In this document: positions 38,729-56,485 of the stretch, piece by piece
How the letters are laid out: each line of letters begins with the position of its first letter
How positions within the stretch are numbered: the stretch's first letter is position 1
Made by a program: the position numbers and the translations under genes
The notes under the pieces: model-generated
The model's input: only the letters and a program-made list of their open reading frames with translations
The model's database searches: none
What the model was told of the DNA's origin: nothing
From: Corynebacterium glyciniphilum AJ 3170
Lineage (GTDB): Bacteria; Actinomycetota; Actinomycetes; Mycobacteriales; Mycobacteriaceae
DNA length: 64,000 nucleotides
Reading direction: 5' to 3'
NCBI RefSeq assembly: GCF_000626675.1
Contig: NZ_CP006842.1
Coordinates: 806,001-870,000 of the forward strand

Positions 38729-39913
38729 ATGAGGACAACAGGCCTGCAGGTGTCGGGCTACGCATTTCTGCTGCGACGCACGGAACTGGCGCTGGTCACC
38801 GGTGACGCACGCATGGCGCAGGACCCGCTACGCACCCAACGGCGGGCGACGGGTGTCGGCGTCCTGCTGACGCTGCTCGTCACCGGCGGGATGCTACTGG
38901 TGGCGATGCTGCGACCGCAGCCCGCCATCGACGACGCCGGCCTCGTGGCCGACGAATCCGGCACATTGCACGTCCGGGTCGGCGAGGCTTTCCACCCGGT
39001 GACCAACGTCGCCTCGGGGCGGTTACTGCTCGGGGCCGCCGACGAGGTCACCAGATCGACCTCTGAACAGCTGGGGCGCTTCGCCACCGGCCCCACGCTC
39101 GGCATTCCGGACGCCCCGGGGCTTGTCCCGGCGCCGGAGTCCTTCTGGGCCCGGTGCGCGCACGGTGTTGTCGCGGCAGCCTCTCTGCCGGATGCCGGAG
39201 CAGTAGTGCTGGAGGCTCCGTCCGGTTGGTGGCTGGCAGTCGACGGCAGGCGACTCCTGCTGTCCGACGGGCCCGTTCTGGCCCGGGCACTCGGAGCAAC
39301 ACCCGTATCAGTCAGCGACGACGTCCTCGGTGTCCTGGACCGTGGGCCGGATGTGGCCCTGACGTCGTTGCGACACACGGTATACAGCGGCGACCGGGTC
39401 TTTCTCGCTGGAGAAGCCGGTGTCGCAGAGGTCACCGGCGCTCGCCGCACCATCGCCGAAGCGCTCACCCCGCCACCGGTCAGTGACAGCCTGCCCACCC
39501 TGCTGTCCCGGCCGGAGGTGACCGGGACCGACGCGCTTGCCCACGTGCCCGTCGATCTGGAGTTGGCGGACGGTGCGGAGATGGGTGAGGTGTGCATCGG
39601 TGAGTACGTCGTGGCTGCCAGGGATCTGGACACCGCCGGTGTCGAGGCGCCGACACCGGATGCCCATTTCGTCGGTCCGCGGGGAACGTCCACCGTCATC
39701 ACGGAACGAGGATTCATTCTGGTCAGCGAGACGGGCGTGCGGTACTCGCTGACTACGGCGGAGGATCTCCGCGTCCTGGGGCTCGTCGTCGATGATGATG
39801 CGGTCGGCGAGCCGACGGCGGTGGCGTTCCGGGTGCTGGCAGGGCTGCCTGACGGAGGAGTGCTGTCAGAGGAACGGGCCAGCCGGACGCTGGTGGGCGC
39901 GGCGGCACACTGA
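38729..39913 (+). CDS. eccB: Type VII secretion protein EccB (ESX-4)
   Basis: A membrane-anchored component of the ESX translocon with a large extracytoplasmic domain. The 394-residue protein starts with the EccB signature TTGLQVSGYAFLLRRTELALVTGDARM, then a basic segment and one helix (ATGVGVLLTLLVTGGMLLVAML, residues 49-70), then the external repeat domain (about 80-390). FWARC and LTSLRHTVYSGDRVFL are recognisable. AAGGGGA is the ribosome site. It stands alone on the plus strand between the EccE-position gene and mycP. Confidence 0.92.
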   Translation: MRTTGLQVSGYAFLLRRTELALVTGDARMAQDPLRTQRRATGVGVLLTLLVTGGMLLVAMLRPQPAIDDAGLVADESGTLHVRVGEAFHPVTNVASGRLLLGAADEVTRSTSEQLGRFATGPTLGIPDAPGLVPAPESFWARCAHGVVAAASLPDAGAVVLEAPSGWWLAVDGRRLLLSDGPVLARALGATPVSVSDDVLGVLDRGPDVALTSLRHTVYSGDRVFLAGEAGVAEVTGARRTIAEALTPPPVSDSLPTLLSRPEVTGTDALAHVPVDLELADGAEMGEVCIGEYVVAARDLDTAGVEAPTPDAHFVGPRGTSTVITERGFILVSETGVRYSLTTAEDLRVLGLVVDDDAVGEPTAVAFRVLAGLPDGGVLSEERASRTLVGAAAH

Positions 39914-39951: not shown

Positions 39952-41091
39952 TCAGCGGACACGCAGTATCAAGGTGGTGAGGACCGCGGCCACCACGGTG
40001 GTTGCCAGGAGAAGAGGAATGCGGACGTCCAGGGGAGGAGAGACCGCCCGCGACACGGTCACCTCCGTCGGGACCTCGTACCGTGTTGTCTGGGCCCTGT
40101 CCATCACATTCGCCCCGGCATCCATGGCGGCACTTACCGCGCTCACCGGGGAAACAACCGGAACCGCCCCCTGGTCCGCGGTGGCGATCAGCAGTGAGCG
40201 GACCTGAGCCGCAGAGAACTCCGGACGCACCTGCCATATCAAGGCGGCCGTACCGGCAACGACGGGAGCGGCGAAGCTCGTCCCGGAGAACGGGGCAGGG
40301 TCACCGATGATGGTCCTGTCCTGCTGGTCTGTGTCCATCGGGTTCCTGCTGTCTCCGGTCTCGAGGACGGCGGAGACCGGCCCGCCGGGCGCGTAGAGCT
40401 CCACCCAGTCGCCGGGAACGGAGTAGTCGGCGGGACGTCGTCCTGCGTTGAGGTCATCGCTGTGTCGGGCATCGATCCCGCCGACAGTGAGCACGTCCGG
40501 TAACGCCGCGGGATAGGGCACCTGTCCGTCCCGGCACTGCCCGGCGTTTCCCGCGGCGGCGATGAGCAGGAGCCCGGCCTCGTCCGCGGCGGCGACCGAG
40601 GCACGGAGCTCGGCGGTATCGTCGCAGGCGATGACGGAGATGTTCACGATCCGGACTCCGTGGTCCGCGGCGGTGACACGGGCCCGGTCGAGTGCCGTGA
40701 CCAGATCAGCGACCGTGGTGTCACGGTCGCCGTCGCCCTGCCTGACCGACACGATGCGGCTGTCGGGGGCGACGGTGCGTATCGTCCCGGCGACGGCGGT
40801 GCCGTGCAGCAGACAGCTGTCCCGGTCACCGGGTTGATCCGCGACGACCCCCGGGGCGGACACCCCGGTATCGACAACCGCAACGCCGATCTCGCGGCCG
40901 GTTGACAGGTCGTGGGGGAGTTGCACGTCCACGGGAATCGCATCACCGAACGCGGGGTGGTCACAGCGGGGCTGGGAGTCGGACGAAGGGATCGGCATGG
41001 TCGAGAGCAACAGCGCGGAGAGCAGCACCCTGCCGACGGCAGGTCTCCGCGGTGACCTGTGGAACCTCTGGAGCCTCTGGAACCTGGTCAT
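39952..41091 (-). CDS. mycP: Mycosin-type subtilisin protease of ESX-4
   Basis: A membrane-anchored extracytoplasmic serine protease required for ESX assembly. The 379-residue protein has a signal peptide (to about residue 40), the catalytic triad Asp74 (GVAVVDTG), His96 (CLLHGTAVAG) and Ser272 (FSGTSFAAP), oxyanion Asn182, and a C-terminal anchor (residues 358-376). The ATG at 41091 overlaps the eccD stop (ATGA); an upstream open frame to 41400 is rejected because it lies inside eccD. The first codons form a 9-base repeat encoding RFQRLQRFHR. Confidence 0.95.
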   Translation of the reverse strand: MTRFQRLQRFHRSPRRPAVGRVLLSALLLSTMPIPSSDSQPRCDHPAFGDAIPVDVQLPHDLSTGREIGVAVVDTGVSAPGVVADQPGDRDSCLLHGTAVAGTIRTVAPDSRIVSVRQGDGDRDTTVADLVTALDRARVTAADHGVRIVNISVIACDDTAELRASVAAADEAGLLLIAAAGNAGQCRDGQVPYPAALPDVLTVGGIDARHSDDLNAGRRPADYSVPGDWVELYAPGGPVSAVLETGDSRNPMDTDQQDRTIIGDPAPFSGTSFAAPVVAGTAALIWQVRPEFSAAQVRSLLIATADQGAVPVVSPVSAVSAAMDAGANVMDRAQTTRYEVPTEVTVSRAVSPPLDVRIPLLLATTVVAAVLTTLILRVR

Positions 41092-42338
41092 CCGATACCC
41101 CTGACGACCTCGAAGACCCCTGTCGTCGTGATCAGCAGTGGTACGCAGGTGGTGAAAGCGAGGGTCTCGAGGATGTCGAGGACCCGCCCGGCCAGAGGCG
41201 AGGTCACCCGCACAGCAGGGAGAGCGGTGGGAATTAGCGCCAGCAGCATCCAGGGTGGCGGTAGGTGGAGAGCGACCCAGAGCACCAGCAGAGTCGCGGT
41301 GAGTGTCACGGTCACGGCATGGACCGGGCGGGTGGCTCGGGCGGACAGCCCCACCGCGGCGACGGTCAGGAGTGCTGCTTCGGTCCACCCCAGCGGCCAT
41401 CCCGGGCTGGGCTCATACCCGGGTGGCAGGAGCTGGACAGCGCCGGCGAGGATGATAATGCAGCAGGTCACCACGATAGCGGGGTGGAGGCGAAGAGCCC
41501 GGGTGGCTTCGGTTGATCCGGTTGATGCAGCTCCGTCGGGGTTGGTGGGTGTGCCGGTGGAGGTGGCGGTGAAGAGGCCGGTTGCCGGGATTCGGGGGAG
41601 GGTGATCCCCGCCAGCCCCACGGCGAGCTGTCCCGAGAATGTCAGTGGGACCACGGCGAGCAGTGTTGTCAGCCCGGGCGCGACGTTGACTGCCGCAGCC
41701 AGGGATAGTCCCACGGTCACGGTGCGGATCACACCGCCGCGCCACACTGCCAGGGCCGAGAGCACGCAGGCCGTCAGAATATTGACCTGCAGGCCGAGAC
41801 CGAATCCCAGCACCGCGGCGACGCTGACGTACCGTCGGTCGGCCAGCGATCCCGCGGCTGCAGCCAGGGTGGCGAGTAGCAGCGCAGCAAGGACGGGCAG
41901 TGATCCTGTGCTGTCTGTCCCCTCGAGCAGCCCGCGTGCGGTGTTGCTGATCTCCAGGGGATGCCAGTGGACCTGTTCCCCGACGTCCCACACTGGTGCC
42001 CAGGACACGGCACACACCGCGGCGGTGATGAGGGCCGCGACCCAGACGGCGGGTGAGACGGCGACCGGCGTACTCAGGCGCCCGACATCGTCGATCGGTG
42101 GTGGCGGCAGACTGTCCTTGTCGAGAGTGAGGCGTTCACCGGGCCGGACCGCACCTTCAGCGAGGGAGTGCTCGGGGCGGAGTACCCCGAGCGGGCCGGA
42201 CAGGCGCCAGACCTCGCCGGGTGCGGCGTCGACGAGGTGAGGTATCAGTTCGGCGACCGGTACGGTATCTGCGATGGTGGCCTCGACGGTGCGGGCGTCA
42301 TCGCTGTGTGGGCGGACGGTGATGCTCACGGCGATCAT
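41088..42338 (-). CDS. eccD: Type VII secretion integral membrane protein EccD (ESX-4)
   Basis: The polytopic membrane barrel subunit of the ESX complex. The 416-residue protein has an N-terminal ubiquitin-like domain (residues 2-75, IAVSITVRPHSDDARTVEATIADTVPV and GERLTLDKDSLPPPPIDDVG) followed by about eleven transmembrane helices (from WVAALITAAVCAVSW). The ATG at 42338 has GGGGGAAG upstream and gives the normal start. It forms an operon with mycP and is divergent from eccC. Confidence 0.93.
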   Translation of the reverse strand: MIAVSITVRPHSDDARTVEATIADTVPVAELIPHLVDAAPGEVWRLSGPLGVLRPEHSLAEGAVRPGERLTLDKDSLPPPPIDDVGRLSTPVAVSPAVWVAALITAAVCAVSWAPVWDVGEQVHWHPLEISNTARGLLEGTDSTGSLPVLAALLLATLAAAAGSLADRRYVSVAAVLGFGLGLQVNILTACVLSALAVWRGGVIRTVTVGLSLAAAVNVAPGLTTLLAVVPLTFSGQLAVGLAGITLPRIPATGLFTATSTGTPTNPDGAASTGSTEATRALRLHPAIVVTCCIIILAGAVQLLPPGYEPSPGWPLGWTEAALLTVAAVGLSARATRPVHAVTVTLTATLLVLWVALHLPPPWMLLALIPTALPAVRVTSPLAGRVLDILETLAFTTCVPLLITTTGVFEVVRGIG

Positions 42339-42496
42339 GACGGGTGCTTCCCCCTGTTGTGGTATGCCCCACGACCGGCCGCGTCCCCCTGACACGTCCC
42401 CGACGGTCGTGGTCGGATGCTTCGAGAGTGTACAGTCTGTTGTCGACAGCTGTCGCGCAGGGGGCGGGGCAGGGGGACGCGAGGGGAATTTCGCAG

Positions 42497-45400
42497 ATGA
42501 AGTCACAGGCTCCACCGACACTGCCGAAGAACAAACAGCCGTTCGTCCGGATCCTCATGCCGGTCGTCATGGTCGTCGCCGTGGTCGGCATGGTCGCGGC
42601 GATGGTGCTGTCGGGGATGGGGCGGTCGCCGATGGCGTTCATATTCCCGTTGATGATGCTGGGCAGCCTGGCGATGATGATCAGTCCTGGTGGACAGGAC
42701 GTTGACGAGGTTCGCAGGGGGTTTCACCGGCACCTGGACGCGTTGTCGGACTCCCTGCACCGGGCGCGTCGGGACCAGTGGGAGCGTGCGGCGGTAACTC
42801 AGCCTCATCCGCAGGCGTTGTGGACGTTCGCGGATGCCGGTTCTACCGGCGGTAGAGAGCAGACACATGATGTCCGGCACGCTGACCCGGGTGTGGTGCG
42901 TATCGGGACGGCGGTGCAGACTCCGGATGATCCGCTGGAGATCCCGGTGGACGCTCCGCCGGAGGACCTCGAACCGGTGTGCGCCACGACGTTGCGGAAT
43001 CTGGCCGGAAGTTACGCCACCATCGAGGCTCCGGTGGCGGTCGACCTGCGGGAGTTCGATTGCGTCGTGGTCACCGGCGAAGGGGCACCGGGGCTGGTCA
43101 GGGCGATGCAGGGGCAGCTGGTGATCGGGGATGACGTGGGGGTACGCGTCACGGGCCCGCACGACCGTTGGCTGTCGGGTGACGGCGCGCTGCATGTGCG
43201 TTTCGTACACCTCGATCCCGAAGGCGGAAGCACCGGCGGTGAGGTCCCGGTTCCCTTGTCCGGTGCGGTGACGGTGGTGGCTGACCCGGCATCGGTGGCT
43301 CCTGCGTGGCATGAACTGGCCGCGACCGGTGGTCTGTTGCTCCATGCGCAGGACGGGACACTGTCCGCCTGGACCGTTGACGGGTGGCGCGCTTTCGCCA
43401 CCGCGGATGATCTGAGTGATGTGGAGCTTGCCGCCCTATGCCGGTCGCGAGCGGTGAGCAGGGCGTCCCGATCGGTGTTGGATGTGCCGGGCGGAGGATT
43501 ACGTGCGGCCATCGGTTTCTCACCGGCACCGGTTCACCTGGATATCCGGGAGTCTGCCCAGGGCGGTATCGGACCGCACGGGTTGTGCATCGGGGCGACC
43601 GGCAGTGGTAAGTCTGAACTGCTCCGCGCGGTGGTGACCAGCTTTGCGCACCAGCACTCCCCGGAAGAACTCAACTTCGTGTTGATCGACTTCAAGGGTG
43701 GTGCGGCCTTCGCGGGGATGGAGCGACTACCGCACACGTCGGCGGTGATCACGAACCTGTCGGATGAGGCGGTGCTGGTCGACCGCATGCAGGACTCCCT
43801 GCTGGGGGAACTGCACCGCCGCCAGGAACGGCTCCACGCCGCAGGGCTGGCTACAGCGGCAGAGTATAACCGGGCCTACCCGGGGGCGATGCCGGCGTTG
43901 TTCGTGATCGTCGATGAATTCTCCGAGTTGCTGCATGCCCGTCCGGAGTTCGCCGAGGTTTTCGCCGCCATCGGACGTCTGGGGCGTAGCCTGCAGATCC
44001 ATCTGCTGTTGGCGAGTCAGCGGTTGGAGGAGGGCAGGCTACGCGGTCTGGAGTCGCACCTGTCGTACCGGATCGCACTGCGGACGTTCTCGGCAACGGA
44101 GTCACGTCAACTCATCGGGTCGACCGCGGCATACGAACTGCCTTCGACTCCGGGGTCGGCGATCCTGAGTTCCATCGGCCAGGTTCGCTTCCAGGCTGCG
44201 TATGTCTCTGGCCCGGAGGCGCCACTGGATTCCCGCGTGGTACGTGAGCTGGGCGTGGAACCGGAGTCGGCGGGCACCACCATGGACCTGGTGATCGACC
44301 GCCTCGCGGGGCCGAACCGGATGCCGATCTGGTTGGAACCTCTGCCCGAGTTACTGCCGGCCAGCGCAGTGATGGGTGATCCTGCCACATCCGACACCGC
44401 CTTGACGGTACGGCTGGGGCTGGAGGACCTTCCGTTCGACGGCGTGCAGCGTCCGTTCGTCCTGGATCTGCGGCGTCGTCACTGGGCGGTGGTGGGGCAG
44501 CCGGGAACAGGGAAGACGACGCTGGTGCGGTCGCTCGTCCTGGGACTGGCTCTGAGTTCGCCGGGTGTGGGGATCTACGTGGTGGACCCTGCCGGTTCCC
44601 TGCACGACCTTGAGAGACTTCCGCAGGTGGCGGCGGTGGTCGGCACTGAGCTTCTGCCCCGATTGCTTGATGAACTGGAGCAGGACGGACCTGACGAGAC
44701 CGTGGGGCGCAGGGTGTTGGTCGTCGACGGTATCGACGCGGTCGGCGAAGAAGACCGGAGGCTCGCCGCGCTCGTCGCCGGAGGTATGGAACGTGGCGTC
44801 CATGTGGTGGTGACGTCATTACGGTGGACATTTCGCCCCGGCCTGCGTGACCTGCTCACCGGCGCGGTGGAGTTGCGGCTCACCCCGTCGGAGTCGGTGT
44901 TCCGTGACGCTCAGCGCACTCTGCCGGATCACCCGGGACGCGGCGTGTCACCGGACGGTAAACACCTGCAGGTCGCCTACTCCGACGCCCAGGATGTCGA
45001 GCACGTCCGCAAGGTCAGCGCGTCCCGCGGTGAGCGGCCCAGGACGATGCGGGTGCTGCCCGAGGTGGTCGGTGTCGGGGAGCTGGAGGAGATTGCCGGG
45101 GCAGGCATCCCTGTCGGTGTCGGTGGCCCGCGGTTGTCCACGGTGAGCTGGGATCTCGACACATTCCCCCACCTGACCGTCGTGGGGCAGTCCAGAGCAG
45201 GCGGGACGACGACGCTGCACACTGTCGCACAGGCCGCGGCGGGGAGGGAGGAGACGGAGGTGCTGTCCACCGACATCCGTCGAGGTCTCCTCGGCGCGCC
45301 GGGCTATCGCCCCACTGCAGCGTTCACCACGGTTCTGAACAGCTGGATTGAGGAACTCACTGCGCGCATTCCCGGTGAGGAGGTGGAGCTGACCCCGGCG

Positions 45401-45811
45401 AGCCTGCGGGAGCGGTCGTGGTGGAGCGGTACCGAGCGCGTCATTGTCGTGGATGACCTGGACCAGTCTGCCGACCTGGCATCCGTTGTGGACCAGCTGG
45501 TTCCGCTGCTCCCGCATGCAGCAGACATCGGGCTGCATCTGGTGACGGCCCGTCGCAGTGCGCTGGTGGGACGCACCGCCTACACCGCGCTGATGCAGGG
45601 TACCCGGGATCTCACGGCGTGGGTGCTCCTGTCGGCGCCCAGGGAGGACGGCCCGGTTGCCGGCCACGTACTGTCGCCGCGCCCACCGGGAAGGGGCATG
45701 CTTGTCCAAGAGACGGCCGAGGAGATCCAGGTGGCGACTGTCAGCCGGGCCGACGGGACCGACGGGGCCGAGACTGCTGAGGCTGTGGATGCGGTGGAGG
45801 TGGGGAGATGA
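42497..45811 (+). CDS. eccC: Type VII secretion ATPase EccC, single-chain (ESX-4)
   Basis: The motor that recognises WXG100 substrates. The 1104-residue protein has two N-terminal helices (about 17-40 and 44-62), a DUF domain and three FtsK/SpoIIIE-type ATPase domains. Walker A of the first is GATGSGKSE (about 366) with DEFSELL; the second is GQPGTGKTT (about 667) with VVDGID; the third is GQSRAGGTTT (about 897), which lacks the lysine. The ATG at 42497 has GAGGGGA upstream; TACAGT near 42430 is a likely -10. Four bases overlap the next gene. Confidence 0.96.
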   Translation: MKSQAPPTLPKNKQPFVRILMPVVMVVAVVGMVAAMVLSGMGRSPMAFIFPLMMLGSLAMMISPGGQDVDEVRRGFHRHLDALSDSLHRARRDQWERAAVTQPHPQALWTFADAGSTGGREQTHDVRHADPGVVRIGTAVQTPDDPLEIPVDAPPEDLEPVCATTLRNLAGSYATIEAPVAVDLREFDCVVVTGEGAPGLVRAMQGQLVIGDDVGVRVTGPHDRWLSGDGALHVRFVHLDPEGGSTGGEVPVPLSGAVTVVADPASVAPAWHELAATGGLLLHAQDGTLSAWTVDGWRAFATADDLSDVELAALCRSRAVSRASRSVLDVPGGGLRAAIGFSPAPVHLDIRESAQGGIGPHGLCIGATGSGKSELLRAVVTSFAHQHSPEELNFVLIDFKGGAAFAGMERLPHTSAVITNLSDEAVLVDRMQDSLLGELHRRQERLHAAGLATAAEYNRAYPGAMPALFVIVDEFSELLHARPEFAEVFAAIGRLGRSLQIHLLLASQRLEEGRLRGLESHLSYRIALRTFSATESRQLIGSTAAYELPSTPGSAILSSIGQVRFQAAYVSGPEAPLDSRVVRELGVEPESAGTTMDLVIDRLAGPNRMPIWLEPLPELLPASAVMGDPATSDTALTVRLGLEDLPFDGVQRPFVLDLRRRHWAVVGQPGTGKTTLVRSLVLGLALSSPGVGIYVVDPAGSLHDLERLPQVAAVVGTELLPRLLDELEQDGPDETVGRRVLVVDGIDAVGEEDRRLAALVAGGMERGVHVVVTSLRWTFRPGLRDLLTGAVELRLTPSESVFRDAQRTLPDHPGRGVSPDGKHLQVAYSDAQDVEHVRKVSASRGERPRTMRVLPEVVGVGELEEIAGAGIPVGVGGPRLSTVSWDLDTFPHLTVVGQSRAGGTTTLHTVAQAAAGREETEVLSTDIRRGLLGAPGYRPTAAFTTVLNSWIEELTARIPGEEVELTPASLRERSWWSGTERVIVVDDLDQSADLASVVDQLVPLLPHAADIGLHLVTARRSALVGRTAYTALMQGTRDLTAWVLLSAPREDGPVAGHVLSPRPPGRGMLVQETAEEIQVATVSRADGTDGAETAEAVDAVEVGR

Positions 45812-46953
45812 GTACCAGCATCGTGGCGACGGCGGTGGCACTCACGGAATCGGGGATCCTGGTCAACGGCTTGTGCGTCACTGACCTGCTGAGCGGTTAC
45901 GAGGTCCGGTGCGCAGACTCGGAAACTGATGGAGACATCGACGGAAGCGCTGGTGCTCCGGTGTTCCGTGGTTCCGGTGTGCCTGTGCGTCGGCTGGAGG
46001 CAGTCCGGGAACTGGTGGAGGAGGTTCTTCAGGCCCGGGCCGATGACCCCGAGCTCACCAGTGCGAATCCGCTCGTGCCACGTACGGTGTTTCCCTGGGG
46101 CATCGGCGCAGACACGACGGATATCCTTGTCGCCGGCCCGGACAAAGACGCCACCGCCGCCTACCTGTGCATGACGGGTGTGCGGGCGAGGACAGTGGAC
46201 GTCAGCCGGGCGCTGCGACTGGCCGGCGACCTGGCCGAGGCACGGGCGGAAGTCGCCGCGACGGCGTCGCCGGATGACGAGCCTGACCGGGACGAGGACA
46301 TGCCGCACATCATCGTCGATGGAGACAGGGGTGGCGGAACGCTGTCGCGCCGGGTGCGGGTCCTGGCTGCCGTCTCTGTGACACTGGTGTGTCTTGTCGC
46401 GGGGGTCGTCGCTTTACGGTCGACCGGGGCAGGGCAGGCCTCGGGGACGGCCACCGGCATACAGCTGGAGGAGGGGGAAGAGAGTCCGGAGGAGAAGCCG
46501 GATCAAGGTGACTCGGGATGGCGCGAGTTGAGCGCGGGTGACTCTCCGGCAGGAGAGGGGGCAGGGGACCCCGTCGCGGCAGTGACGGTTGATGTCGCGG
46601 GTTGGCGGATGACCGAGAGCACGTCCGACAGTGAGATCTGGACATCCGGGGACGCGGGGATGCGTGTGCTCGTTGCCGCCCGCCCGACACCGGTGGGGAC
46701 GCAGGGAGAACTGGATGCGGCAATGCTCGGTGCCCTCGACGGACTCGACGGTAACGGTGACATCGCGGTGACGAACCGCTCCCCGGTCGCCTACGAGGAG
46801 TATTTCCCCGATTCGACGACGTCCTGGCAGGTCCGACTGGTGGACGGCCATCAGGTGTCGGTCGGATGCCAGTACCGGGAGGTTTCCGATGAGCGGCGGG
46901 AGACCTGTGAACGGTTCAACGCTACTGCCCGAGTGACCGCAGCGGCTGGTTGA
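45808..46953 (+). CDS. Type VII secretion-associated protein, Rv3446c-like
   Basis: A 381-residue single-pass protein. Residues 1-150 are a cytoplasmic domain ([37 protein letters not shown]), one helix spans about 187-207 ([19 protein letters not shown]), and residues 255-381 are an external domain ([52 protein letters not shown]). The layout matches the ESX-4 accessory family typified by Rv3446c. The ATG overlaps eccC by four bases; the 3' end overlaps lldD by 32 bases tail to tail. Confidence 0.85.
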
Positions 46954-50861: not shown

Positions 50862-50889
50862 GGAACCTTTCCGGCGCCCGGTGAGTCTC
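50862..50889 (+). promoter_or_regulatory. ECF-sigma-type promoter of the WXG100 genes
   Basis: GGAAC (50862-50866) and GTCTC (50885-50889) are separated by 18 bases, the layout of ECF (SigM/SigE-like) promoters. The same boxes, the same spacing and much of the flanking sequence (GGGAACCTTTC and GTGAGTCTCTCT) recur at 54341-54368. It would start a transcript about 65 bases before the first WXG100 gene. Confidence 0.72.
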
Positions 50890-50964
50890 TCTACGGTGAC
50901 GTCTCCGGCATAGGCCCCGGGGAGCGGCATACAGAGTCAAGAGACTACGACAGGGGAGGGACCC

Positions 50965-51249
50965 ATGAGCTTCAGAACAACAACCGAGGTCATGCAGGCC
51001 ACGGCAGGCAAAGTCGACACGGTCAATGACCAGGTGCAGTCCGAGCTGACCCGACTACAGGGCACCGTCGACGGTGTGGCAGGGGCGTGGAAAGGGGACG
51101 CCCAGGTCGCATTCGCCAATCTCATGATCCGGTGGCACGAGTCTGCGCGTGAGCTACGACAGGCACTCGACGGGATCTCGGAGAATATCCGCAGTAACGC
51201 CCGGGCTTTCCAACAGGTCGAGGACGACAACATCGCGGCATTCCGCTGA
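50965..51249 (+). CDS. WXG100 secreted protein of ESX-4 (first of pair)
   Basis: A 94-residue helical-hairpin protein with the turn motif Trp-Lys-Gly in GVAGAWKGDAQVAFANL near residue 40. The C-terminus (NARAFQQVEDDNIAAF) carries a degenerate form of the YxxxD/E export signal. These proteins leave as heterodimers through EccC. AGGGGAGGG is the ribosome site. It is the likely counterpart of EsxU or EsxB; which of the pair it represents cannot be settled by eye. Confidence 0.92.
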   Translation: MSFRTTTEVMQATAGKVDTVNDQVQSELTRLQGTVDGVAGAWKGDAQVAFANLMIRWHESARELRQALDGISENIRSNARAFQQVEDDNIAAFR

Positions 51250-51290
51250 CCACCCCACCACCGTCGACACACTTCTGAAGGAATGACACC

Positions 51291-51572
51291 GTGATCCAGT
51301 ACGACTTCGGCCACATCGCCCAGGCGTCCGCCGACATCCACGCCACCAACCGCAACATCAACGGCATGCTCGACCAACTCAAGGGAGACATCGCCCCGAT
51401 GGTGGCGGAATGGGAGGGGGAGAGCGCCTCGGCATACCAGACGGCACAGAAGCGGTGGGACGCTGCTGCCGAGGAACTCAACCAGGTGTTGCAGACCATC
51501 GCCAGAGCCGTGGACAACGCCAATTCCCGTATGAGCCAGATCAACACCAGCGCAGCGAACAGCTGGGCCTGA
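51291..51572 (+). CDS. WXG100 secreted protein of ESX-4 (second of pair)
   Basis: A 93-residue WXG100 protein with Trp-Glu-Gly in APMVAEWEGESASAYQTAQKRW near residue 41 and long flanking helices. It starts GTG 41 bases after its partner with GAAGGA upstream, so both are probably translated in similar amounts and secreted as a dimer. The C-terminus ends in NSWA, with no clear YxxxD motif. It is the likely EsxT/EsxA counterpart. Confidence 0.92.
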   Translation: MIQYDFGHIAQASADIHATNRNINGMLDQLKGDIAPMVAEWEGESASAYQTAQKRWDAAAEELNQVLQTIARAVDNANSRMSQINTSAANSWA

Positions 51573-51605
51573 CACGGGGCCGTCCGGCCTGCGTCGTGCG
51601 TGTGC

Positions 51606-51638
51606 CGTCGCCGTTCCCTCCGGGGGAGGGCGGCGGCA
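51606..51638 (+). terminator. Possible terminator after the WXG100 pair
   Basis: GCCGTCGCCGTTCCCTCC can pair with GGGAGGGCGGCGGC with small mismatches, making a GC-rich hairpin followed by ATCGTTGTC. It lies between the WXG100 genes and the rplM promoter. Confidence 0.45.
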
Positions 51639-51653
51639 TCGTTGTCGGTTGAC

Positions 51654-51683
51654 TTGGTTCAGGAGATGCACATCCGGTAATCT
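51654..51683 (+). promoter_or_regulatory. Putative rplM promoter
   Basis: TTGGTT (51654-51659) and TAATCT (51678-51683) are 18 bases apart, giving a leader of about 140 bases before rplM. It separates rplM-rpsI transcription from the upstream ESX genes. Confidence 0.5.
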
Positions 51684-51833
51684 CCATCAGGTTGCGATTA
51701 TCCATGCCCGTGTCACGGCGCATCGATGGTCGGCCCGCAGGTCCCCACCGGCCGCTGCGGGCACCTCTCCCGGGGTTTCCCGGGATCGAGGGGTCTTCCG
51801 GCTGGCAGTTCCATGAAGACCAAGGAGTCATAC

Positions 51834-52277
51834 ATGACTACTTTCCACCCGAAGAGCGGTGACCTGACCCGTAAGTGGTACGTCATCGACGCCAATGACG
51901 TGGTCCTGGGTCGTCTCGCCACCCACGCGGCAGACCTGCTGCGCGGCAAGGGCAAGCCGATCTACGCCCCCAACGTCGACTGTGGTGACAACGTCATCAT
52001 CATCAACGCGGACAAGGTTCACATCTCGTCCAACAAGCGGGACCGTGAGTTCCGTTACCGCCACTCCGGTTACCCGGGCGGCCTCAAGACGATGTCCCTG
52101 GGTCGCTCCATGGAGCTGCACCCGGAGCGCGTCGTCGCCGACGCCATCGTCGGCATGATGCCGCACAACAGGCTCAACCGCGAGTCCGCCAAGAAGCTCC
52201 GCGTCTTCGCCGGCTCCGAGCACCCCTTTGCGGCTCAGAAGCCCGAGTCCTACGAGATCAAGAAGGTGGAACAGTGA
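51834..52277 (+). CDS. rplM: 50S ribosomal protein L13
   Basis: An early-assembling 23S rRNA-binding protein of 147 residues ([95 protein letters not shown]). The ATG at 51834 has AAGGAG upstream and gives the family length; earlier ATGs are rejected. It overlaps rpsI by four bases. Confidence 0.98.
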
Positions 52278-52822
52278 CCGATAACGAGAACTACGAGGCC
52301 GAGTCCGTGGACGAAGAGGTCTTGGCTGCCACCGACGCCGTGAACGAGGAGTTCGTGGCCAGCATCGGTGACTCCATCGCCGAGGTGTCCGAGGAAGCGG
52401 AGGGTGACGACTTCGTCGCCGCCCCCACCGTCTTCGACGGCCCGATCCAGACCGTCGGTCGCCGTAAGGAAGCCGTCGTCCGTATCCGCATGGTGCAGGG
52501 CTCCGGCCAGTTCACCTGCAACGGTCGCACCCTGGAGGAGTACTTCCCCAACAAGCTGCACCAGCAGCTGATCAAGGCTCCGCTCGTCCTGCTCGAGCGC
52601 GAGAACCAGTTCGACTTCCAGGTCAACCTCAAGGGCGGTGGCCCGTCCGGTCAGGCCGGTGCGATGCGTCTCGCCATCTCCCGGGCCCTGAACAAGTACA
52701 ACCCGGAGGAGCGTTCCGAGCTGAAGAAGGCTGGCTTCCTCACCCGTGACGCCCGTGCCGTGGAGCGCAAGAAGGCTGGTCTGCACAAGGCCCGTCGCGC
52801 ACCGCAGTACTCCAAGCGCTGA
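52274..52822 (+). CDS. rpsI: 30S ribosomal protein S9 with an acidic N-terminal extension
   Basis: S9 places its C-terminal tail in the decoding site. Residues 55-182 are standard S9 ([62 protein letters not shown] with the terminal KR). Residues 1-52 are an acidic extension, seen in actinobacteria and absent in E. coli. The GTG start overlaps the rplM stop. Confidence 0.97.
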
Positions 52823-52873
52823 CTCATACGAGCCTTCGCTCGACTGCCGTGCGGCCTCGCAGCCGCACACGAC

Positions 52874-52915
52874 AACGCCGCCCCGTCCCGCACTCTGTGT
52901 GGGCGGGGCGGCGTT
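52874..52915 (+). terminator. Intrinsic terminator after rpsI
   Basis: AACGCCGCCCCG and CGGGGCGGCGTT form the base of a long GC stem extended by TCCCGCAC/GTGTGGG. It ends the rplM-rpsI transcript ahead of the separate glmM promoter. Confidence 0.88.
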
Positions 52916-52964
52916 GCCTGTCGTTTGGGGGAGTTGGGGGCATGACGGTCTAGACTGGCACTCC

Positions 52965-54311
52965 ATGAGCAGACTTTTCGGTACGGACGGGGTTAGGGGC
53001 CTCGCCAACAGGTCGCTGACGGCACCACTGGCACTGCGGCTGGGGGCGGCTGCCGCGCGTGTCCTCACGACGACGGGCCAGGGATCGCAGCGTCGACCCA
53101 CGGCGGTCATCGGTCGTGACCCGCGGGTGTCGGGTGAGATGCTGGCAGGCGCTCTGTCCGCTGGAATGGCGTCTCAGGGCGTGGACGTGCTGAATGTCGG
53201 TGTTCTTCCGACACCGGCGGTCGCGTTCCTCACCGATGACTACGGGGCGGACATGGGCGTGATGATCTCCGCATCACACAATCCGATGCCCGACAACGGC
53301 ATCAAATTCTTCGCTGCGGGTGGGCGAAAACTCGATGACTCCGTGGAAGACGAGATCGAGTCGGCGATGCTCGAACTGGAGGAACGTGGTCCCACCGGAG
53401 CTGCGATCGGCCGGGTCATCGAGGAGTCCGGGGACGCTCTGGAACGGTACCTGTTCCATCTGCAGGATGCCGCGCCACGGCCGTTGGACGGCATCCGGGT
53501 GGTTGTCGACTGCGCCAATGGCGCCGCAAGCCTCGCTGCTCCCATGGCCTACGAGGCCGCTGGCGCGGAGGTGGTGGCGATCCACAACTCTCCGAACTCC
53601 TTCAACATCAACGACAACTGCGGATCGACCCATATCGAGGTCATTCAGCAGGCCGTCCTCGACCATCATGCGGACCTGGGACTGTCCCATGACGGCGACG
53701 CGGACCGGTGCCTCGCGGTGGACTCCGAAGGCCGGGTGATTGACGGTGACCAGATCATGGCCATCCTCGCGGTGGACATGAAGGAGTCGGGGGAGTTGCG
53801 GAAGAACACTCTCGTGGCAACGGTGATGTCCAACCTCGGTTTGACCCTGGCGATGAAAGAGCACGACATCACACTGCGCCGCACCAAGGTCGGTGACCGG
53901 TATGTGCTGGCGGACCTCATGGCCAATGATTTTTCGCTGGGAGGGGAACAGTCCGGCCATATCGTGATTCCGTCGCATGCGACGACAGGCGACGGTACGC
54001 TCACCGGACTGAGGCTGATGGCGAGGATGGCGGACACCGGACAGTCGCTGCGTGAACTGGCCGACGTGATGACGGTGCTCCCCCAGACCCTCGTCAATGT
54101 GCCGGTCGAAGAGAAGGAGCGTATTCACACCTCCGAGGTTGTCCGTCAGGCTATCGAGGAGGCTGAGGCCGAACTCGGTGACACCGGTCGTGTGCTGCTG
54201 CGCCCCAGCGGTACTGAGCAGGTCTACCGGGTGATGGTGGAGGCTCCAACGTCCGCGGAGGCCAAACGGGTCGCAGGACGGCTCGCGGCGATCGTCGTCG
54301 CCGAAGGGTAG
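52965..54311 (+). CDS. glmM: Phosphoglucosamine mutase
   Basis: Converts glucosamine-6-phosphate to glucosamine-1-phosphate for peptidoglycan precursors. The 448-residue enzyme has [18 protein letters not shown], the catalytic phosphoserine loop [13 protein letters not shown], the metal loop [13 protein letters not shown] and the sugar loop GGEQSGHIV. The ATG at 52965 is chosen because TAGACT ends eight bases upstream (leaderless); the long frame to 52746 runs into rpsI. glmS, the preceding pathway step, is 3.3 kb downstream. Confidence 0.97.
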
Positions 54312-54340
54312 GGGCAGCCGCGCCTGGTTCCCCGGGGGAG

Positions 54341-54368
54341 GGAACCTTTCGGCACTCCAGTGAGTCTC
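54341..54368 (+). promoter_or_regulatory. ECF-sigma-type promoter of the ESX-linked operon
   Basis: GGAAC (54341-54345) and GTCTC (54364-54368) with an 18-base spacer repeat the layout and flanks of the WXG100 promoter at 50862-50889. The pair is the best sequence evidence that the operon at 54463-56485 belongs to the same regulon as the secreted WXG100 proteins. Confidence 0.72.
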
Positions 54369-54462
54369 TCTTGTCACGGGCCAACGAATGGGTCGTTGGC
54401 TGGTGGCCCACGTGACGGCTACGGCTGTGCTGTGTCACCGGAGAGATGAAGGGGGTGTGCCC

Positions 54463-54780
54463 GTGGCACCGGATAACAGCAGCCTCGGGGTGGACGTCGC
54501 CGCTGCACAGTCGGCATTGTCAGAGGCGTTCACCGCCGTGGAGGGGCGGCAGGAGAAGATCCAGGCCGATGCCCCGCGACGGGTGGCAGAGAGTTACGGG
54601 CGTGGTCTCGGCGAACAGGCAGCTCGGCTGGTGGAGCTGCGTCGGCGCGCACATGAGGTGCGGCTGGCACACATCGACCGGTTGCGCCGCGGGCTGGAGA
54701 ATGCGGCCGGTACGTTGACCGCGGTCTCGGACACGGAGGAAGAGTCGCAGCGCGCACTGAGCGCGGGGGAGGGGCGGTGA
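54463..54780 (+). CDS. Small helical protein, first gene of the ESX-linked operon
   Basis: A 105-residue all-helical protein (LGVDVAAAQSALSEAFTAVEGRQEKIQADAPRRVAESYGRGLGEQAARLVELRRRAHEVRLAHIDRLRRGLENAAGTL). The length and two long helices around a glycine turn (SYGRGLGEQ) resemble WXG100 proteins, but no tryptophan is present. The GTG at 54463 with AAGGGGG seven bases upstream is preferred over the in-frame ATG at 54388. In position and size it corresponds to Rv3440c next to mrsA/glmM in M. tuberculosis, as I recall it. Function unknown; its 3' end overlaps the next ATG (TGATG). Confidence 0.75.
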   Translation: MAPDNSSLGVDVAAAQSALSEAFTAVEGRQEKIQADAPRRVAESYGRGLGEQAARLVELRRRAHEVRLAHIDRLRRGLENAAGTLTAVSDTEEESQRALSAGEGR

Positions 54781-56270
54781 TGTCGGTACAAGGTGATCAA
54801 GCGAGGCTCATTGCCTCAGTGAGCAAGCTCGACCAGGCGGGCAGCACGGTGACCAGGGCTCTTCCCGCCGCCGTGCCCTGGATCATCACCGGAGTCACTA
54901 CGCTGGTGGAGTTTGCCGACGGCATGTCGCTTGGGGGTGGTGACGACAGCAACGGGGACGGCAAGGAATCGAAAGAGTCATCCGGTGGAGAACCCGGGAA
55001 GGGAGGCGGGAAGAAAGGCTTTGTCGGTGAGGTGTTGTCGACATTGAGGGACTACGTGGTCGGAATCAGCGGAGGCGTGCTGGCCAACAAATTGGGAGTC
55101 GGCAGCGATGACCACGAAGAGCATGAGGAGACCGTGGATCATGCGGATGCGGCGCTGCTGAGCTGTGACCGCGTCTTGGAATCCATCCAGTCCCTGTGCA
55201 CCGGGGAAGTCGAATCATGCGTGGACGGTGCCGTTGCTACGGCAATGGGGCTGTACCGAGCGTCGAAGGCTCTGCAACCCACCGACCCGGTCGCGGCGCA
55301 GACCATGCTCGAGACGGCTGCGCAGCTTCTCTGCTCTGCCGCAGACGGCGTCGGAAGCATAGTGGAGGGACGAAACACGCAGATGGGTGAATGTATGGAA
55401 CTCACTATCGCCGAGTGTCTCCCGGCGGCCGAGGAGGGGCAGTGCCGTACCCCGTTGGCCGCGGATCCGGCACCGGGAGCTGTGGCGTCCGACTGTGACG
55501 TCGCACCCGTACCACAGGACGTGGCTGCGGTTGGGGCCTCGTCCGTGGCGTCGGTGGAATCCTGTCCTCCACTGTCCGGACAACTGCCCACGACGGGGAC
55601 TACGTCAGGTGTTGCCGCGACTGCCGCGACCGCCGTCGCATCCGCAGGACTGGGCTCCTCGGTGACACCATCGCTGTCCTTGCCCTGTCCCCCTGTGGTG
55701 AATACGCCTGATCTCGTCGGGGAAATCAGTGGCTGGGTCAAAGGGGCAGTCGAGGGTGCAGTGAACGTCGCTGTAGAGAACTCCGGGTCGCTGATCGACG
55801 TAGGCGATATCGCCGTGAACCTGTGCCCGCCCGAGACGCCTGTGGAGGAAGGTGGCAGCGACTGCGCCGACCAGCGCGTCGAGCCGGAACCATGTCTGCC
55901 GGAACCCGCTGAGCCGGAGCCGTGCGAGCCGGAGCCATGTGAACCGGAGGAACAGGATGAGCCCGATGCCCCGGCTCCGTCGACCGTTGACCCCGAGAAA
56001 GGGTTCGACAAGAGTACGTACGTGCCGGAAACAGCCACCGCGGGAGGCGGGGCGGACCAACCTGCATCCCCTGTCGAGGCAGATTTTCCGCCGGCGGTGG
56101 ATCCTGCTGCCGTGGATGACTCGTTGGAATCTCCACACGCCCCCGATGGTCCCGACACCCCGGATCCTCCGGAGAACGCCTCTGCCTACGACGGGTGGAC
56201 ACCGGACGTATGGCTGACAGGTGAAAAATCCGGCGATGCACCGTCGGTGGCAAGGAGCGGACAGTGGTGA
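54780..56270 (+). CDS. Large Ala/Pro/Glu- and Cys-rich protein of the ESX-linked operon
   Basis: A 496-residue protein. Residues 1-50 are helical (DQARLIASVSKLDQAGSTVTRALPAAVPW), 55-75 a Gly/Ser/Lys spacer, 80-205 a helical domain with spaced cysteines (LLSCDRVLESIQSLCTGEVESC, LLCSAADG), 205-345 Ala/Ser/Val-rich, and 355-405 carries a PEPCEPEPCEPEE-like Cys-Pro-Glu repeat. The tail is Pro/Asp-rich. No signal peptide is seen. The size and low-complexity make-up fit Rv3439c, annotated alanine- and proline-rich. It is a plausible ESX-4 substrate or scaffold; the cysteines suggest disulfides outside the cell. ATG at 54780. Confidence 0.72.
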   Translation: MSVQGDQARLIASVSKLDQAGSTVTRALPAAVPWIITGVTTLVEFADGMSLGGGDDSNGDGKESKESSGGEPGKGGGKKGFVGEVLSTLRDYVVGISGGVLANKLGVGSDDHEEHEETVDHADAALLSCDRVLESIQSLCTGEVESCVDGAVATAMGLYRASKALQPTDPVAAQTMLETAAQLLCSAADGVGSIVEGRNTQMGECMELTIAECLPAAEEGQCRTPLAADPAPGAVASDCDVAPVPQDVAAVGASSVASVESCPPLSGQLPTTGTTSGVAATAATAVASAGLGSSVTPSLSLPCPPVVNTPDLVGEISGWVKGAVEGAVNVAVENSGSLIDVGDIAVNLCPPETPVEEGGSDCADQRVEPEPCLPEPAEPEPCEPEPCEPEEQDEPDAPAPSTVDPEKGFDKSTYVPETATAGGGADQPASPVEADFPPAVDPAAVDDSLESPHAPDGPDTPDPPENASAYDGWTPDVWLTGEKSGDAPSVARSGQW

Positions 56271-56485
56271 ACACCAGAAGTCCCATAGAGGCTGCGTTGG
56301 ACACCTACGTCCAGGTTGTCGGCACTGCGACGGAGAAGTTCCAGAGACAGATGGATGAAGCGACCCGCCTGCTGAAGGAGGCCGGGGTGGCGGAACCCAC
56401 CGAGCCCGGTGAGCCCCGTCCGGAGACAGGCCGCGGCGGCACCGAACGCACGCCGGGGCGCCGAAGCCCCGGTATCTTCGACTGA
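56267..56485 (+). CDS. Small protein, third gene of the ESX-linked operon
   Basis: A 72-residue protein: a helical first half (SPIEAALDTYVQVVGTATEKFQRQMDEATRLLKEAG) and a disordered Pro/Glu/Gly/Arg second half. GTG at 56267 overlaps the previous stop by four bases, with CAAGGAG upstream. Coupling to the two preceding genes implies a common function; the family is not recognised. Confidence 0.62.
   Translation: MNTRSPIEAALDTYVQVVGTATEKFQRQMDEATRLLKEAGVAEPTEPGEPRPETGRGGTERTPGRRSPGIFD

Follow-up and report, generated by a model that had tools for sequence, protein, structure and literature searches.

Twin predicted ECF-type promoters before esxU-esxT and behind glmM in Corynebacterium glyciniphilum, and SigM as their probable sigma factor

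We analyzed a 64,000-nucleotide stretch of Corynebacterium glyciniphilum AJ 3170 (hereafter the window; contig NZ_CP006842.1, positions 806,001 to 870,000) that carries an ESX-4 secretion locus, and predict that two twin sites in it are promoters of one extracytoplasmic function (ECF) sigma factor, most likely SigM, a reading to which we give a probability of roughly 0.8. One site precedes the genes for the WXG100 proteins EsxU and EsxT, and the other an operon that follows glmM (hereafter the second operon). Conservation at both places, the position of start codons behind the motif in other genomes and the kinds of genes that it precedes, recA among them, carry this prediction.

Twin sites in the window and their conservation

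The sites and the genes around them are as follows:

50862..50892, plus strand: predicted ECF-type promoter of esxU-esxT, with −35 GGAACC, a 16-base spacer, −10 AGTC and the tail TCTCT
50965..51249, plus strand: esxU-like gene for a WXG100 protein of 94 amino acids (PF06013, E=2.6e-22)
51291..51572, plus strand: esxT-like gene for a WXG100 protein of 93 amino acids (PF06013, E=2.3e-19)
52965..54311, plus strand: glmM, the anchor between both promoters, preceded by rplM (51834) and rpsI (52274)
54341..54371, plus strand: predicted ECF-type promoter of the operon after glmM, with the elements and spacing of the site at 50862
54463..54780, plus strand: second operon, gene 1, 105 amino acids, no Pfam match above cut-off, predicted helical hairpin
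54777..56270, plus strand: second operon, gene 2, about 496 amino acids, no Pfam or NCBIfam family, with tblastn relatives
56267..56485, plus strand: second operon, gene 3, a small open reading frame of 72 amino acids, read from sequence

The two sites (GGAACCTTTCCGGCGCCCGGTGAGTCTCTCT at 50862 and GGAACCTTTCGGCACTCCAGTGAGTCTCTCT at 54341, both on the plus strand) have the coordinates and orientation given in a preliminary description of this DNA, agree at 25 of their first 32 bases and stand, counted to their GTCTC, 75 bases from the ATG of the esxU-like gene and 94 bases from the GTG of the post-glmM operon. The same description had called their resemblance far beyond chance, which is borne out for the core with its flanks: GGAACCTTTC-N9-GTGAGTCTCTCT is exact at both sites, occurs nowhere else in the window with up to two mismatches, and appears in none of 100 shuffles. 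The bare core does not reach significance, as GGAAC-N16..20-GTCTC is found twice in the window against 1.26 expected and at least twice in 35 of 100 shuffles; hence, the pair owes its significance to the added flanks. Across the genome, GGAAC-N18-GTCTC has 17 matches against 3 for the reversed pattern, and 12 of the 17 are without the CCT..GAGTCTC flanks.

For comparison, we gathered 80 named loci via GlmM (the window protein is 98% identical to one from C. glyciniphilum and, over most of its length, 99% identical to that of Corynebacterium sp. CNJ-954) and sought GGAAC-N16..19-GTC within 350 bases before esxU or 450 bases behind glmM. A site precedes esxU in 25 of the 29 loci that have this gene and enough sequence, i.e., 19 of 23 in Corynebacterium and all six in other genera (Rhodococcus, Rhodococcoides, Mycolicibacter, Saccharopolyspora, Prauserella and Kutzneria). 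Each of the four misses (L105, L106, L119 and L123) is a near variant on reading, with −10 elements AGTC, AGTA, GCC and AGTA and no GTT, and the matches in L127 and L109 come without the usual tail. Behind glmM, 28 of 79 loci display a site: 24 of 29 in Corynebacterium (the exceptions being L106, L110, L119, L123 and L127) and 4 of 50 elsewhere, namely in Mycolicibacter (L146), one Gordonia, Kutzneria at a far distance and, as a poor match, one Streptomyces. As a negative control, a glmM-side match occurs in 2 of 44 non-Corynebacterium loci where no esxU was found. The usual Corynebacterium form is GGAACC-N16-AGTCCAAT, and that of the window's clade is GAGTCTCTCT. A graded score of at least 12 is attained by 23 of 24 esxU sites, 21 of 30 glmM-side sites and 19 of 30 recA sites, its consensus having been built from the esx sites themselves and being circular for these and less so for recA; 22 of 600 random windows attain it as well, a background that contains true sites. 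Both window sites combine a −35 GGAAC, a GTC-type −10 element and a fixed spacing upstream of genes. Their identification as ECF-type promoters, already proposed in the preliminary description, draws strong support from the conservation of both places throughout Corynebacterium and from that of the esxU site in further genera.

Relatives of the 105-residue protein occupy the matching place in other loci, and their alignment (n=20, including the protein itself) retains one invariant glycine. Its AlphaFold2 model is a helical hairpin (predicted local distance difference test score 86.7) with helices at 12–35 and 50–102. A WXG100-type fold is not borne out by a fold search of the PDB, in which no match reached an E-value of 0.001 among the 96 listed up to E=10. 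A profile search with the same protein recovered 41 proteins, none with precomputed Pfam domains, and those with a name in the source are called hypothetical. For the 496-residue protein, tblastn relatives lie at the corresponding place in many Corynebacterium loci. From the shape, the place and the shared promoter, we infer that the products of the second operon could be ESX-4 substrates or partners.

Targets of the motif across genomes

To survey the wider regulon, 20 named Corynebacterium genomes were scanned with GGAACC-N14..17-GTCYAAY, which gave 115 matches (as row sums) against 35 for the reversed pattern, with none in G020. Ten further genomes of Gordonia, Rhodococcus-type, Mycolicibacter, Saccharopolyspora, Prauserella and Kutzneria were scanned with GGAACC-N15,16-CGTCNAA, which gave 109 against 11. 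In each set, 87 distinct sites were examined downstream, with genes sought only on the motif strand.

The start codons behind these sites appear to be the strongest sequence evidence for the motif as a promoter. A start codon opening at least 60 codons lies 4–6 bases behind the motif at 48 of the 87 Corynebacterium sites and 38 of the 87 sites of the second set, against means of 3.6 and 6.2 and maxima of 8 and 12 for the remaining three-base intervals within the 57 bases that follow it. This peak coincides with the place of the transcript start expected from an ECF −10 GTC, which leads us to take the motif as a putative promoter; the esxU, second-operon and recA sites have leaders rather than adjoining start codons. 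The motif might instead be the binding site of a repressor or activator whose dimeric structure sets the spacing, a view that would suit its long, well-conserved elements and their fixed distance. We consider this very improbable, given that GGAACC and AGTC are not repeats of one another, that the bases and spacing are typical of ECF promoters, and that start codons clustered 4–6 bases downstream are expected of leaderless transcripts.

Recurrent Corynebacterium targets are an NlpC/P60 protein preceded by a small helical one (10 genomes and the window's), an HNH/GmrSD_C nuclease whose N-terminus is hydrophobic (7 and the window's), a SAF-domain protein (7), DNA-3-methyladenine glycosylase (6), RecA (5 and the window's by this pattern) and DUF559 or related proteins in several groups. 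Further recurrent or single targets comprise DUF4192 (2), YraN-ComM (2 by this pattern) and EccB and EccC (1 each, named by eye). The commonest targets outside ESX include a wall hydrolase and a nuclease. In Gordonia or Rhodococcus, the motif stands before recA and genes for HNH nucleases, DUF559, DUF222-HNH, an OGG-like glycosylase, DUF4244, and PE-like and other small proteins. A role of the SAF protein as a pilus part was considered and dropped, as the CpaB model scores far under its cut-off. Additionally, a protein of 182–211 amino acids stands directly under the motif in nine genomes, and the one member searched gave no Pfam or NCBIfam match. One Gordonia genome (G024) has five related proteins, each starting 5 bases behind a motif, of which the one tested is DUF222-HNH; this seems to be a repeated gene family carried along with its promoter.

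In the window's own genome (3.57 Mb), GGAACCT-N15-AGTCTC has five exact matches, i.e., both window sites, C1:942687(-), C1:1670227(+) and C1:2052923(+), and the looser GGAACCT-N13..18-AGTCT finds the identical five against 3 for the reversed control. With up to two mismatches, the fixed pattern has 52 matches against 29 for the reversed control, the weaker ones being mostly noise, and weak matches with a spacer one base longer (64 against 58) were likewise set aside. Ten weak matches were read and a single one (L047) retained, because its gene is an HNH nuclease found under the motif in other genomes. This leaves six credible sites, the sixth being C1:1392302(-), which has one mismatch and a spacer one base longer and lies 8 bases ahead of an HNH/GmrSD_C protein. 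C1:1670227(+) precedes recA. Directly behind C1:942687(-) is the start codon of an operon (C1:941325-942679; L100 5326-6680, minus strand) for a 113-residue protein without a family and a 338-residue NlpC/P60 protein, perhaps a small partner of the type VII secretion kind plus a wall hydrolase. At C1:2052923(+), the start codon lies 9 bases behind the motif, and the genes (C1:2052960-2054437; L013 1538-3015) encode a 167-residue protein without a family and a RelA/SpoT-like protein (PF04607), which may connect the regulon with (p)ppGpp; a comparable pair is found in C. variabile.

Within 400 bases upstream of recA, a site is present in 17 of 30 genomes and a reversed-control match in none. The 17 are made up of 14 of the 24 Corynebacterium genomes and all 3 of Gordonia, with none from the 2 Rhodococcus-type genomes or the single Mycolicibacter. 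The graded recA score of G028 (12, spacer 14) is doubtful. Variants of the motif recur at esxU and recA within a genome: C. variabile and C. jeikeium have TGAACC at both, the genome of L119 has CGCC(A/T)AAC at both, and the C. glyciniphilum clade has GAGTCTCTC at its esxU, post-glmM and recA sites alike. One factor drifting together with its sites explains well why each of these three lineages has a single variant at esxU and recA. Conservation and the whole-genome motif set together strongly support the earlier proposal that the ESX-4 pair shares a regulon with the second operon. The label "ESX-4 regulon" fits in that esxUT lie under the motif and is too narrow in that most recurrent targets are non-ESX genes, recA and DNA-repair genes included; the genome-wide scan suggested in the preliminary description does yield further sites, mostly before non-ESX genes, with eccB4 and eccC4 hit in one genome each elsewhere.

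The ESX-4 genes of the window are the following:

38729..39913, plus strand: eccB4 (TIGR03919), with no GGAACC site in the 230 bases upstream
39952..41400, minus strand: mycP4, a mycosin (TIGR03921, score under the model cut-off)
41088..42521, minus strand: putative eccD4, so named for its place and its hydrophobic sequence, without an NCBIfam match
42497..45811, plus strand: eccC4 (TIGR03924, TIGR03925)
45808..46953, plus strand: Rv3446c-like ESX-4 protein (TIGR03931)

These genes and a WXG100 pair near rplM-rpsI identify the locus as ESX-4, with the reservations given for eccD and mycP. The order runs from eccB through the mycosin, the membrane protein in the place of eccD, eccC and the Rv3446c-like gene to two minus-strand genes, a GntR-type regulator (recognized by eye), esxU and esxT, and onward to rplM, rpsI, glmM and the second operon; next, on the opposite strand, comes a hydrolase-like gene, and then glmS. 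We take this order to be that of Rv3445c-Rv3436c in M. tuberculosis, with the second operon in the place of Rv3440c-Rv3439c.

SigM as the candidate factor

The genome has 22 matches to sigma region 4; on reading, nine of them fall in frames that resemble sigma factors, and the others belong to response regulators. A frame at C1:3500092-3500799, outside the window and near the chromosome end, has SigM (NF007225, 117 bits) as its top NCBIfam model and lies in the order murJ-sigM-trxB-trxA; the gene order and best model identify it as a probable SigM orthologue. Its stop codon overlaps the start of trxB, leaving no anti-sigma gene between them. The best SigM match adjoins trxB in 24 of 28 Corynebacterium genomes; among the exceptions, it adjoins murJ in G016, a weaker match adjoins trxB in G017, and no intact one is there in G033 and G036.

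Published work points to the same factor. In M. smegmatis, SigM is described as having ESX-4, a nuclease and a cell wall hydrolase under its direct control and as being released in recipients on contact (review PMC9514802), and expression of esx-4 is 2–4-fold lower in an M. tuberculosis sigM mutant (PMC10117145). All three target classes recur here in esxUT, the wall hydrolase and the nuclease. The consensuses of other ECF factors of C. glutamicum do not fit the motif: GGAAT..GTT for SigH, GGAAC-N16-cGTT for SigH/SigE, GTAAC..GAT for SigD and GGAAAC..CGACT for SigC (PMC5483222, PMC6338062, PMC10012870). The gene position, the target classes and these differing consensuses support the preliminary suggestion of SigM, and we infer that it is the factor.

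The closest contenders are SigE and SigH, whose promoters these sites would then be, so that the regulon would branch off the response to envelope or heat stress. Their −35 core is identical and their C. glutamicum consensus, GGAAC-N16-cGTT, is similar; SigH, which shares targets or sites with SigE and SigD in an overlapping manner, recognises GGAAN (PMC10012870, PMC6338062). However, the −10 element is GTC rather than GTT in both window sites and in most esxU and glmM sites of other species (the pattern required GTC, and the four esxU misses show no GTT), and the published SigH/SigE targets dnaK, clgR, sigB, dnaJ2 and cseE are not among the recurrent targets recovered with the GTC patterns. 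We therefore regard SigE or SigH as improbable.

Several observations weigh against the assignment to SigM. The case is built from sequence, and the 117 bits of the SigM model lie below its cut-off of 190. This clade's SigM is 26–53% identical to the trxB-adjoining matches of other species. G034 has sigM yet no glmM-side site; G036 yielded neither a tblastn match to SigM upstream of trxB nor a glmM-side site. The ESX-4 core genes of the window have no convincing motif site upstream. The SigH/SigE consensus is one −10 base away, and the genome patterns, in requiring GTC, left GTT sites invisible. Several variants are seen at recA and not at esxU (GGATCC in G002 and G011, GGAGCC in G005 and G007, GGACCC in G009), and C. 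variabile retains GGAACC after glmM. Finally, SigM of C. glutamicum, which resembles the present factor by name, is tied to disulfide stress (trxB1, sufR, trxB, trxC); four promoters proposed for it later proved SigH-dependent, and a directed search found no SigM promoter (PMC5483222).

Co-loss of sigM and the motif gave no clean test: L110 combines a partial sigM with the absence of a glmM-side site and L127 has neither a trxB-adjoining SigM match nor a good site, but L119 has sigM and a changed motif. In the genome of L110, the frame upstream of trxB is only part of an ECF sigma factor, which could reflect either the loss of sigM or a fault in the assembly.

A possible contact programme and its meaning

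Under the SigM assignment, active SigM would direct RNA polymerase to start at GGAACC-N16-AGTC. EsxU/EsxT and the Rv3440c/Rv3439c-type operon would then be made together with the peptidoglycan hydrolase operon, RecA, the HNH nuclease and a small number of other proteins; elsewhere in the group, DUF559 proteins and DNA glycosylases would be added, as would EccB4 or EccC4 in single genomes. Such a programme could ready the cell for contact and DNA uptake. More broadly, though we hold this version to be unlikely, SigM of Mycobacteriales might govern, in response to cell contact, a conserved programme by which recipients acquire DNA, comprising ESX-4 and its substrates, wall opening by NlpC/P60, DNA trimming by HNH, DUF559 and YraN-type nucleases, a rise in RecA, and repair of the incoming strand by Tag and OGG-like enzymes. 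The same SigM regulon might also do without DNA exchange, recA and the glycosylases being included because the damage that SigM answers, oxidative or to the envelope, affects DNA too. This reading competes with the proposed purpose and not with the regulon, and we rate it at somewhat less than even odds. It draws on the link of C. glutamicum SigM to disulfide stress (PMC5483222), on sigM adjoining trxB/trxA and on the action of Tag and OGG-like enzymes on damaged bases, whereas ESX-4, the wall hydrolase and the nuclease fit contact or DNA exchange better, and contact is said to release SigM in M. smegmatis recipients (PMC9514802).

A strict competence reading was not adopted: yraN-comM carries the motif in 3 of 30 genomes (a fourth match, in G001, with the shortest spacer and no tail, was excluded). 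Among the recurrent motif targets, comEA and comEC are absent, their upstream regions not having been read directly, and dprA itself was not seen in the stretches examined. Transformation in Micrococcus luteus reportedly depends on a Flp pilus, and DUF4244, which we take to be pilin-like, offers a likeness in that its gene is under the motif in two Gordonia genomes (2 of 27 overall). The likeness ends there: comEA/comEC do not recur, and the right-tailed motif precedes DUF4244 in 0 of 19 readable Corynebacterium genomes. Matches without the tail occur in Rhodococcus G021 (−436) and Corynebacterium G005 (−296), and L444 has almost no upstream sequence.

The regulon resembles that of SigM in M. 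smegmatis and M. tuberculosis in having esxUT and ESX-4, a wall hydrolase and a nuclease as targets. It differs in its −10 tail (GTCYAAY or GTCTCTC), in including recA and DNA glycosylases, in the lack of a clear site at the window's ESX-4 core genes and in having no anti-sigma gene between sigM and trxB. C. glutamicum SigH/SigE promoters are alike in the GGAAC −35 and similar spacing, unlike in their cGTT −10 and their targets. The SigM-ESX-4 link is already known. What appears to be new is how deeply the twin sites are conserved, the consensus in Corynebacterium, and the membership of recA and DNA-repair genes: in the titles and abstract openings surveyed, which leave most subscription papers and the gene lists of Raman 2006, Agarwal 2007 and Clark 2018 outside their scope, we found no SigM promoter in Corynebacterium and no recA in a SigM regulon.

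These sites offer concrete candidate SigM promoters for Corynebacterium, where the directed C. glutamicum search (PMC5483222) had found none, and the matching predicted esxU promoter spans Saccharopolyspora to Mycolicibacter. If the recipient programme holds, Corynebacterium and Gordonia would share one used by mycobacterial recipients, and the placement of recA and base-repair genes under the predicted esxUT promoter makes the loose idea that ESX-4 serves DNA exchange a testable one.

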